In this document: positions 2,524 to 6,416 of the stretch, piece after piece
Layout of the letters: each line of letters begins with the position of its first letter
Numbering within the stretch: position 1 is the stretch's first letter
IMG/VR virus record: IMGVR_UViG_3300009159_000053
Coordinates: 1 to 64,000 of that record
DNA length: 64,000 nucleotides
Reading direction: 5' to 3' (one strand)
Source of the DNA: a virus
Made by a program: the position numbers and the translations under genes
Notes under the pieces: model-generated
What the model saw: the letters and a program-made list of their open reading frames with translations, nothing else
What the model was told of the DNA's origin: nothing
The model's database searches: none

Positions 2524-2560
2524 TTGATCTTTTTAGAAACCTCTAGGGGCAAAAGATCAA
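2524..2560. repeat. Perfect 10-bp inverted repeat
   Basis: TTGATCTTTT (2524-2533) pairs with AAAAGATCAA (2551-2560) across 17 nt. As a plus-strand hairpin it is AT-rich. No gene ends just upstream, so it is likelier an operator or leader structure than a terminator. Confidence 0.4.
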
Positions 2561-2607
2561 TAATTTTCAAGTGAAAAAAGCCTAGATAGAGATTGAACTC
2601 TAGTGAA

Positions 2608-2644
2608 CTTAATAAGTCATTAAATCCTTCGGGAACTTATTAAG
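2608..2644 (+). other. Stem-loop with UUCG tetraloop
   Basis: CTTAATAAGT (2608-2617) pairs perfectly with ACTTATTAAG (2635-2644). Directly inside the 3' arm, TCC-TTCG-GGA makes a three-pair stem capped by the very stable UUCG loop, leaving a 7-nt bulge. The UUCG cap favours an RNA structure on the plus strand, i.e. part of the 5' leader of the rightward operon. Confidence 0.45.
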
Positions 2645-2730
2645 GTGATAGCAAATCAATTAACTATTAATTACATAGAGAATTAGGCAAACATAATCAA
2701 TATGTTTTCTATTAATTAATCATGGATAGT

Positions 2731-2876: not shown

Positions 2877-2950
2877 TGGTGAATACATAATGTATTCAAT
2901 ACAACTTAATATAGAACTTAATTCCTTCCCCCCAACAAAAGGAATAAGTA

Positions 2951-3133
2951 ATGAAAACAAATACATATATAGATACAAACGGAAATATCGTTGCTACTGG
3001 AACAATCTCAATTAACCAAATTGATCTCGTTCTATCTAATGGAACTCGGTTCTTTTCTACTCGTTCCGATAATTACACTCTTGATGTTTTGAAAAACTTA
3101 AACATCAACAAAATAGTCAAAGGACTAAAATAA
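2951..3133 (+). CDS. Hypothetical 60-aa protein, first gene of the rightward operon
   Basis: Starts at ATG 2951 with AAAAGGAATAAGT as ribosome-binding site. The product looks like a small beta-rich domain (alternating hydrophobic residues in NGNIVATGTISINQIDLVL) with a lysine-rich end. No known motif. The next gene starts at the base after its stop, so the two are surely co-translated. Confidence 0.6.
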   Translation: MKTNTYIDTNGNIVATGTISINQIDLVLSNGTRFFSTRSDNYTLDVLKNLNINKIVKGLK

Positions 3134-3418
3134 ATGGAAAACAAAAAAATGATCATTAATGATCTAACTTATGATGAAGTTGCGTTATTACTTACATCAT
3201 TAAAAACCATGATAATAAAGATGAAGGAACTTGAAGCCCCTGAGTTCTTTATTGAAATGGCAATACCTTTGTTTGATCAGGTCGAGATTATTCTTGATGA
3301 AAAAGTGGCTGAACAAAAAGCGTTCATTGAATTGGTTAGCGACCAACTTGATGATGTTTTACTCGCTTCATCAATTATTGAAAAAGACCCTGATGTGGTA
3401 ATACCTGAATACAAATAA
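3134..3418 (+). CDS. Hypothetical acidic 94-aa protein
   Basis: The start abuts the previous stop. The product is acidic and appears all-helical, with regularly spaced leucine and isoleucine (LLTSLKTMIIKMKELEAPEF). A small dimerising or protein-binding role would fit, but no family is recognised. It is followed by the 239-nt gap holding the putative structured RNA (3425-3605). Confidence 0.6.
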   Translation: MENKKMIINDLTYDEVALLLTSLKTMIIKMKELEAPEFFIEMAIPLFDQVEIILDEKVAEQKAFIELVSDQLDDVLLASSIIEKDPDVVIPEYK

Positions 3419-3424
3419 ATAAGT

Positions 3425-3605
3425 TTGTGTTAGTAATAACCGATTAAATAGGTTCGGGCGGTTTTCTGAATATCAAATGGTTGCTATTTAATCATTTGAG
3501 TTTTGTTCCTTCATTTATGAACGACAACAGATTAGCCAATGTGTGCCTACATAGAACTCCATAATAGATAAAGAGATCGTCTTTATTCCGTTATTGCTAA
3601 CACAA
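3425..3605 (+). ncRNA. Putative structured RNA / 5' leader closed by a 16-bp long-range stem
   Basis: The ends pair over 16 bp: TTGTGTTAGTAATAAC (3425-3440) with GTTATTGCTAACACAA (3590-3605). The only non-Watson-Crick position is T3434 opposite G3596, a G-U pair in the plus-strand RNA but a mismatch (A-C) in the minus strand. Inside are a perfect 10-bp helix (3442-3451 with 3484-3493), an incompatible 7-bp helix (3473-3479 with 3493-3499), a hairpin at 3510-3521 and a 7-bp hairpin with 5-nt loop (3568-3586). It ends 52 nt before the AAA ATPase gene, so a cis-regulatory leader or a free small RNA are both possible. No known RNA family is recognised. Confidence 0.5.
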
Positions 3606-3657: not shown

Positions 3658-4521
3658 ATGACTACAACAAATAACAAATCCTTCTTTGTTCCTTCGCTGG
3701 AACAAACTGGGCATTACATTGAACGATCTTTCGGTGGTGGTATTACCGAAACTCAGATGTATGACTATTCACTTGAAAACAAAATGAATGTGTTAATTGA
3801 AGGTGATGCTGGAACTGGTAAAACAACTTCCGCTATGGCTTACGCATCAAAACGCAAAATGAACTTCTTTGCCGTTCCTTCTAATAACGCACTTGATTTC
3901 ACACAATTAACTGGCGGTTTATTTCCTGATAGCAACGGCGAGTTAAAGTGGATTGACGGCGCAATTACAAAGATCGTTCGTGAAGGTGGCGTGTTATTAA
4001 TTAACGAATTAAATAACGCACCAAAAAATCTTTCACAATATCTAATGAGTTTATTAGATGATCGCCGATCAATTACATTGATGAGCCACGACAACGAAGT
4101 TATCCATGCTCACCCTGATTTATTAGTGGTTGCTGATATGAACCCTAATTATCGTGGAACTCAATTACTTAATGAAGCGTGGAAAGATCGCTTCGCAATT
4201 AAGTTAACTTACAACTACGACACAAAGATTGAAAAACAAATCCTTAGTTCAAGTTCATTACTGGAACTTGCTAATGGTATGCGTTCAACGCTTCGTGTTA
4301 GTGATGTTTCTAATTCATCAACCATATTTGAAACTCCAGTATCAACTCGTATCTTAAAAACATTCGAGAAACTTGCTAAGGGTCTTTCTTATGAGTTTGC
4401 TAGTGAAGTATTTGTTAATAACTTTGCTGATGATGAGAAGCCAGCAGTTCGTATGTTGCTAGAAGGTAGCGAATACAACATCAAATCCGATCTCGGATTA
4501 CTTGAAACAGTTAACGCTTAG
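3658..4521 (+). CDS. MoxR/CobS-like AAA+ ATPase
   Basis: This 287-residue single-domain AAA+ protein has Walker A GDAGTGKT (49-56), a Walker B region GVLLINEL (111-118), a sensor-1 asparagine in ADMNP (about 162) and an arginine finger region KDRF (about 176-179). MoxR-type ATPases act as chaperones with a VWA-domain partner, opening or inserting metals into target complexes. That partner is encoded 14 nt downstream. Oddly, Walker B has Asn where Asp usually binds magnesium (INE for DE); the Glu is kept. Phage cobS-like genes are known in cyanophages. AT-rich codon use matches the neighbours. Confidence 0.85.
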   Translation: MTTTNNKSFFVPSLEQTGHYIERSFGGGITETQMYDYSLENKMNVLIEGDAGTGKTTSAMAYASKRKMNFFAVPSNNALDFTQLTGGLFPDSNGELKWIDGAITKIVREGGVLLINELNNAPKNLSQYLMSLLDDRRSITLMSHDNEVIHAHPDLLVVADMNPNYRGTQLLNEAWKDRFAIKLTYNYDTKIEKQILSSSSLLELANGMRSTLRVSDVSNSSTIFETPVSTRILKTFEKLAKGLSYEFASEVFVNNFADDEKPAVRMLLEGSEYNIKSDLGLLETVNA

Positions 4522-4535
4522 TTAGGAATAAATAA

Positions 4536-6416
4536 ATGGATTATCCATTCTTAGATTTAGATACGGCTTTAGCCCAATCTGATCTAAAAAATAAGCAGAA
4601 GCAAGAAGCGGAAATTAAACGCCAAAGAGTTGAACGATTTGCTCAATTCTTTGGCAGAGTTAATTCCGCATTAACACTTCGTAAGGTTGAAGTTAAAGTT
4701 GAACATGCGGATATAAACGCACCTGCTTGGTCAGGTGCTAGTCATGTTTGTTTTAACTCTCGATTACTTGGCAACTTAAATACAGCAAAAGAAATTGCTG
4801 GATTGCGTGGTCTTGATTTACACGAAGTTAGCCACATTCTTTATACACCAAGAGAAGGTTCTGAAATCTTTGAATGGTGTAGAGATAATGATTATTTATT
4901 TGCTTACAATGCGTTAGACGATCAACGAATTGAAACTTTATTTACAACTCGTTATCCGTCAACGATTGATTGGTTCACATCAACAATTCTTATTCACTTT
5001 GTTGATGACCCAAAAGCATTTGAAACTTCGTATGGCTTATTGCGTGGTCGGCAATATCTACCAACTGAATTGTTGGCACGATCACGCAACGCATATAAGT
5101 TCCAAGATCAATTAGATGAAATCTGCGAAATTGTTGACCAGTATCGTGTATTAATTTTTCCTGATGATACTGAATTAGCAAAAGATTTAATCAAACGATT
5201 TGATGCGTTAATGCCAAAACAAGAAGTTTCCCAAGACGGATTAGCGGATTGGGAAAAAGATTTACTTGGTAATGGTGGCAAGAAAGTTATGATCTCAATT
5301 AAATCTCCATTTGGTCATGGTGATAGACCGCATGAAGGTATAGAGAGTTCATCAACATCTCGCCCAGTTCCACCAATTCAACAAAAGCGTGATCGTGATA
5401 GGGCTAAAACAAAACCTATTAAAGATGATGCTAAATTGGCAGAACAATTAAAATCAGAACCAGTAATTGAAATTGATTTAACAGATCAAAATAAAAATAC
5501 TGGTAATGGTAAAACTGCTGGTAATCAAACTCCTGATGATCAATCTGCTTTATCAGATATGTTAAATAACATATTAGATAATCAACAGATTGCTAACGAG
5601 ATCAACGACATCATTAGACAAATTGGTGGCTTACCTTCTCTTGCTACTAATAATTCTAAAGAGCCACAAAAATCTCGGTATCATAATCAAACTCCTGATG
5701 CTAAAACTTTCCAAGCATCTCTATCTTTTAGTAGAGAGTTAGAAAGATTAAAAGCAACCTTTGACCCTGCTTGGAATAAATATCAATCACAGGGTCGCTT
5801 ACAGGCGCATAGATATATGCGTGGTGATGATTTAGATACGATCTTTGATCAATGGTCAGAAGGTCAAGATGATGCCACAGAGATCGAGTGCGTAATCCTT
5901 TTAGACAATTCAGGTTCAATGAGTGGCAGTAAAGAAACTTCTGCTTATCGGGCTATGTATGCGATTAAAAGAGCATTAGATCGCATTAACGCAAACACCA
6001 CAGTAATTACATTCAATACGCATACAAACATTTTGTATCGTGCTGATGAAAAAGCAACTGGTGTAATTCGTAATGCTGGCTCTCAGGGTGGAACTAATCC
6101 AACAGAAGCAATTACTTACGCAACTAAAATACTTGCTGAAACTGAAAAGCCAGTTCGTATTTTCTTTGCCATTACTGACGGAGAGTGGGAACATTATTCC
6201 GTTAGAGAAAATGATGAAGCAATTAAGAAACTAGGTAATGCTGGTGTATTAACTGCTTTTGCTTATATTGCTGATCAAGATGAATTAGTAAAACTTGATC
6301 AGGAAAAATCACACTATTGCGAAATTGGTGCGATTGTAAATAATCCCCTTAACTTAATTAGCATGGCTAAATCAATCGTGAAGTATGCGATTAGTCGGCG
6401 ATTAGTTAACGCATAA
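4536..6416 (+). CDS. Metallopeptidase-like / VWA-domain protein, partner of the MoxR ATPase
   Basis: This 626-residue protein resembles the DUF2201/CobT-type architecture. The N-terminal part carries HEVSH (residues 96-100), an HExxH zinc-protease motif. A charged, low-complexity middle (about 250-390) follows, then a C-terminal VWA domain with a complete MIDAS: DNSGS near 456, the Thr of GGTNP near 517 and the Asp of ITDGE near 547. With the AAA ATPase directly upstream it should form a MoxR-VWA remodelling or proteolytic pair. Target unknown; virion maturation or host takeover are guesses. AGGA precedes the start. A strong hairpin follows the stop. Confidence 0.8.
   Translation: MDYPFLDLDTALAQSDLKNKQKQEAEIKRQRVERFAQFFGRVNSALTLRKVEVKVEHADINAPAWSGASHVCFNSRLLGNLNTAKEIAGLRGLDLHEVSHILYTPREGSEIFEWCRDNDYLFAYNALDDQRIETLFTTRYPSTIDWFTSTILIHFVDDPKAFETSYGLLRGRQYLPTELLARSRNAYKFQDQLDEICEIVDQYRVLIFPDDTELAKDLIKRFDALMPKQEVSQDGLADWEKDLLGNGGKKVMISIKSPFGHGDRPHEGIESSSTSRPVPPIQQKRDRDRAKTKPIKDDAKLAEQLKSEPVIEIDLTDQNKNTGNGKTAGNQTPDDQSALSDMLNNILDNQQIANEINDIIRQIGGLPSLATNNSKEPQKSRYHNQTPDAKTFQASLSFSRELERLKATFDPAWNKYQSQGRLQAHRYMRGDDLDTIFDQWSEGQDDATEIECVILLDNSGSMSGSKETSAYRAMYAIKRALDRINANTTVITFNTHTNILYRADEKATGVIRNAGSQGGTNPTEAITYATKILAETEKPVRIFFAITDGEWEHYSVRENDEAIKKLGNAGVLTAFAYIADQDELVKLDQEKSHYCEIGAIVNNPLNLISMAKSIVKYAISRRLVNA

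Follow-up and report, generated by a model that had tools for sequence, protein, structure and literature searches.

Known RNA and mobile elements comparable to this locus

The early genes of phage T7 are separated by RNase III sites, which are intercistronic hairpins of the phage message. GOLLD and other large phage and lake RNAs present in Rfam are long and non-coding, lie near a tRNA gene and contain many helices. At the DNA level, MITEs are short non-coding elements with inverted-repeat ends, present or absent between close relatives. Actinophages WC1, D29 and Kampy express non-coding RNAs of unknown function in abundance (PMC10986025).

The window analysed here is a stretch of 64,000 nucleotides at the start of a virus record 86.9 kb long, and two of its plus-strand regions are considered: element A (3425-3605) and RNA R (about 2655-2891), located 0.5 kb upstream of it. 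That a structured RNA lies at 3425-3605 was confirmed; it has no counterpart in Rfam and is a variable intercistronic element rather than a conserved leader. Like the T7-type hairpins it places a stem between two cistrons of a phage message, but its interior is up to 150 nt long, multi-branched and exchangeable, and the 11-12 bp stems of its short forms fall below the length needed for classical RNase III cutting. With MITEs it shares size, non-coding nature, inverted-repeat ends and patchy presence; it differs from them in having no multi-copy family and in keeping its outer stem when the interior is missing, and the repeats flanking such elements here vary in length. RNA R is, as the GOLLD-like RNAs are, a long phage non-coding RNA with many helices near a tRNA gene; in contrast to them, neither R nor A matches Rfam 15 even at permissive thresholds. 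Searched with the Rfam 15 families at gathering score, the window contains only a tRNA, in agreement with the preliminary description, which recognised no known family in element A; permissive scans of A, R and their relatives gave chance-level matches below gathering. The RNAs of WC1, D29 and Kampy are known by expression whereas R and A are known by covariation, and the likeness, that of an actinophage non-coding RNA, suits R better than A. No description of element A was found in the literature.

Genomic context

Divergent genes of the minus and plus strands flank a stretch at about 1.75-2.95 kb that is mostly non-coding and adjoins a tRNA-Gly gene. The plus-strand operon opens with a 60-aa ORF (2951-3133), followed by a 94-aa ORF (3134-3418) directly 5' of element A; neither has a family match. 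Next on the same strand come moxR (3658-4521), encoding an AAA+ ATPase (AAA_5; 'porphyrin biosynthesis' or CobS-like in phages), and the gene of a CobT-like VWA protein (4536-6416). Element A follows the stop codon of the 94-aa ORF and leaves 52 nt to the moxR start. It had been placed upstream of the MoxR/VWA operon; it does precede moxR, but it is intercistronic, the operon beginning earlier with the 60-aa ORF.

Among annotated proteins the ATPase is closest to those of Brevibacterium and Gordonia phages, at 39-43% identity, and the host is therefore likely to be actinobacterial; the virus is taken to be a freshwater-type actinophage. The same layout was seen in Gordonia phage GMA6 (L132:850-1905), where divergent genes are followed by about 1 kb without annotated genes and then by the ATPase and VWA genes; this region has no match to R and may contain an unrelated or too-diverged RNA.

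Structure of element A

The ends of element A are joined by a closing helix of 16 pairs (3425-3440 with 3590-3605), one of which is U-G in the plus-strand RNA. As had been described, this helix spans a 181-nt region; its score of 17 is the highest in the window and was reached in 0 of 30 dinucleotide-preserving shuffles of the window. The whole element folds on the plus strand with a minimum free energy of -47.6 kcal/mol (z -4.26, 0 of 200 shuffles as good), which bears out the folding-energy check that had been proposed, and on the minus strand with z -2.35. The homologous elements at the moxR site beat their shuffles too, but as they mostly do so on both strands, the strand cannot be assigned from folding energy alone.

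Four further structures are enclosed: helix Pa (3448-3453 with 3545-3550, alignment columns 29-34 with 126-131), hairpin Pc (3474-3498, pairing 3474-3483 with 3489-3498), hairpin Pe (3503-3527), invariant across the five long forms, and hairpin Pd (3568-3586), which is present in the pair counts of the long-form alignment. These five sequences, the window and the homologues L004, L007, L009 and L041, share 57 consensus pairs with 97.5% of cells paired, against 52% at most with slid partners. Compensatory changes were seen at two pairs, one in Pa (G-C to U-A, columns 33/127) and one in Pc (G-C to A-U, columns 60/74), and sliding gave none or one; others vary by G-U only. The 3' arm of the closing helix is identical in all five long forms, and its 5' arm carries uncompensated pair-breaking changes in L004, L007 and L041. 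The plus strand, favoured earlier from the single odd G-U pair, is supported by 20 G-U against 4 A-C cells. The compensatory changes expected of homologues were thus found, and the case for a plus-strand structured RNA in the long form is moderate because there are five sequences only and 21 of 500 shuffles reach the covariation score.

Two mutually exclusive helices had been proposed inside the element. Both exist as sequence: the 10-bp helix (3442-3451 with 3484-3493) is perfect, and the exclusive hairpin is Pc. The hairpin is dominant in four of the five long forms, but the 10-bp helix has a probability of 0.01 in the window ensemble and of 0.01 or less in four relatives, where forcing it costs 3 to 10 kcal/mol. 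A two-state switch was therefore rejected, as the 10-bp helix is not conserved and the two helices did not both hold in the relatives.

Forms at the moxR site

With the ATPase as protein query, 42 viral loci were retrieved, in which four main states were identified upstream of moxR. The long form (A1, 178-181 nt) comprises the window and its four homologues. The short form (A0) is a hairpin of 32-37 nt with the same outer stem as A1 (TTGTGTTAG/CTAACACAA, the outer 9 bp of the closing helix), identified for example in L002, L006, L008, L010 and L012. A third group, including L013-L023 and L027-L029, has no such stem before moxR, and element A is therefore not essential. The fourth state is a different element of about 135 nt (A2), found in L024, L025 and L026 and, further upstream of moxR, in L040. 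A scan of viral contigs with the A1 core gave nothing beyond the contigs already known, and element A was not found in annotated phages or plasmids.

The sequence identity between the window and L006 is 99.6% across the 480 nt upstream and 97.7% in moxR, yet the window has A1 and L006 a 37-nt A0 hairpin, while the A1-bearing L004 is merely 90.2% identical to the window upstream. The long interior was therefore recently gained, lost or exchanged. The closing stem is kept and the interior is exchangeable between close phages.

These distributions bear on the regulated leader that had been suggested, that is, a riboswitch or attenuator of moxR whose interior senses a signal. A large multi-helix fold preceding the gene and a long stretch of unpaired bases plus hairpin, identical in all five long forms, speak for such a leader; however, the long form is confined to five close contigs, the interior is missing in a near-identical phage, the two-state switch is not conserved, and the element stops short of the ribosome site and has no terminator-like T run. 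We consider a leader improbable.

The same exchange suits another reading, in which element A would be MITE-like non-autonomous mobile DNA, its closing helix being terminal inverted repeats (here of 16 bp) with no function as RNA. The presence of long and short forms in the nearly identical window and L006 argues for it, and so does a comparable closed element of 127-137 nt with ends of about 17 bp at a second intergenic site (L014:10440-10566, L015:7518-7646, L024:6967-7101 and L025:10414-10550), which is precisely missing from L016, L019 and L021 and keeps this explanation alive. In L025 an 11-nt direct repeat (TACAACTAAAT) stands on both sides of A2. Flanking repeats are nevertheless inconsistent in length, 11 nt at this A2 and about 4 nt at the D element. 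There is also one site per record, the A1 interior is unmatched elsewhere in the fetched loci or viral contigs, the outer stem persists when the interior is absent, and the inner helices are retained with G-U on one strand. Mobile DNA is accordingly unlikely, though far from negligible.

Possible role of element A in the moxR-VWA message

The ribosome site of moxR is unpaired with a probability of 0.70 when element A is included and 0.71 when it is removed, and masking of this site was rejected. No T run follows the stem in any form, the stem of the window being followed by TTCAATTCCCC; element A thus fails as an intrinsic terminator, defined as a G+C-rich stem and then a T run, and is missing from the list given by the terminator scan. 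A transcription terminator, long or short, would explain the strong stems right 3' of the stop codon in both forms, but besides the T run it is contradicted by the same strand running on into moxR and the VWA gene with no promoter-like site found between, and it is very improbable.

Neither promoter-like nor terminator-like sites were recognised at the ends of element A or before moxR, a weak negative in that actinobacterial promoters may be missed. This weighs against the free small RNA that had also been proposed, either transcribed from a dedicated promoter or released from the mRNA by cutting, as does the narrow distribution. A strong fold of about 180 nt with its ends closed by a 16-bp helix would fit such an RNA, and actinophages WC1, D29 and Kampy are known to produce abundant non-coding RNAs (PMC10986025); on balance this origin is quite doubtful.

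The reading that we tentatively prefer, at somewhat less than an even chance, is that of a structure in the mRNA between cistrons, the closed stem of which would serve as a local barrier or segment boundary tuning the moxR-VWA message. It is the most economical one for an element that is intercistronic, leaves the ribosome site unmasked, and has neither a T run nor a recognised promoter. In its favour are the outer stem that long and short forms have in common at one and the same position, the two compensatory pairs, the excess of G-U over A-C cells, and the long, compensated closing helix also retained by the unrelated-looking A2 elements. Against it stand the relatives that have no stem, the invariant 3' arm with pair-breaking changes in the 5' arm, the small number of long forms, and the shortness of the A0 stems in respect of RNase III. 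Element A would be transcribed within the polycistronic phage mRNA between the 94-aa ORF and moxR; the closed stem might slow 3' exonucleases or RNA polymerase, or be trimmed, and could thereby set the survival or reading of the moxR-VWA message relative to the preceding small genes. The large interior of the long form would contribute something optional.

RNA R, upstream of the operon

RNA R was first met when the relatives were scanned for closed stems (2817-2889 in the window), and its alignment was extended to about 240-260 nt. It comprises a 5' part (2655-2709), a core (2710-2795) and a 3' stem-loop (2815-2891), all on the plus strand. The core is formed by helices P2, P3 and P4 with the conserved motifs AUGGA, UGC and UAAYCAAU (78.1 bits with model R1), and the stem-loop by P5 with an apical P6 (89.5 bits with model R2). 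The 5' part is in many relatives a GAAA-capped hairpin with compensatory changes, and is weak in the window. In the core both partners differ in 17 of 20 pairs (24 sequences), with a covariation of 0.682 against 0.186 or less for slid partners; in the 3' stem-loop the corresponding values are 15 of 27 pairs (18 sequences) and 0.541 against 0.176 or less. The counts of G-U and A-C cells are 29 to 9 for the core and 56 to 4 for the stem-loop. Covariation is thus overwhelming in favour of R as a conserved new RNA family.

R is present in about 30 viral contigs and in nearly all relatives scanned, 0.6-1.8 kb before moxR. The core model found exactly one copy per record in 10 of 10 long records and also one in the record of the window, and the L118 record, with an ATPase only 50% identical, has R about 2 kb before the ATPase on the same strand. 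R was not found in the three annotated Brevibacterium and Gordonia phages examined nor, more widely, in annotated phages or bacterial genomes; a search of the genome collection with one exact core pattern gave nothing, a weak negative. Pattern matches in L111 and L125, at 19 bits, are probably due to chance. Short motifs of element A and of the R core resemble each other by eye, but model R1 has no match at A even with filters off, and the idea that A duplicates the core was rejected.

Since R stops shortly ahead of the first gene, beside its ribosome site in some relatives, it is likely to be a 5' leader. By analogy with other actinophages (PMC10986025), it is possible that R is a separate non-coding RNA. 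The preliminary description of a regulated leader or free small RNA upstream of the operon in fact suits R better than element A.

Two observations concern its margins. The R 3' arm (GAATACAT) can pair with ATGTATTC just downstream in an alternative hairpin, seen in the window (2880-2898), L009, L014 and L025, the last with a compensated pair (GGATAC/GTATCC). Upstream of R a motif like AATCCCTAGGGAA or CCTCTAGGGG, followed by GGTGA, was identified in the window (2536-2650), L025, L026, L108 and L113, and it may be part of a longer RNA.

Related elements and hairpin tips

The A2 elements (L024:1234-1374, L025:4788-4929, L026:4343-4482 and L040:4555-4687) share the conserved motifs CGACAR and AGCCCAAU, and their closing helix is compensated. 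Among the four sequences, 13 of 28 pairs have changes on both sides, a covariation stronger for its depth than that of A1. Model R3 gave no support for element A being the same element: its best match in the window is partial (E 0.13), aligning the 5' arm of A and leaving out the 3' arm, and in the whole record of the window this model has no match.

R hairpins in L012, L026 and L027 end in a recurring tip module, AACTAC[C/T]T...GCTACTTA in slightly varying versions, as do a second R hairpin of L026 and the A2 elements of L024-L026 (L012:4278, L024:1250, L025:4804, L026:2611/2737/4358 and L027:1277). Related versions were seen in L028 and L029. This pattern is a lead towards an exchange of hairpin tips among the RNAs of these phages; since the cassette AACUAC...GCUACUUA caps hairpins in both R and the moxR element of some relatives, tips may be traded within a phage. 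A wider view, which we hold to be unlikely, would be a new RNA system made of a single-copy R heading the early operon and intercistronic closed stems, with exchangeable and possibly traded RNA cassette tips.

Implications for freshwater-type actinophages

Uncultured freshwater-type actinophages may carry RNA classes missing from Rfam. The covariation of R suffices to define a family at once, and its roughly 30 contigs and conserved unpaired motifs make its function testable. The closing helix of element A, kept while the interior is swapped in near-identical phages, offers a natural experiment on the role of the stems for the CobS/CobT-like moxR-VWA genes.
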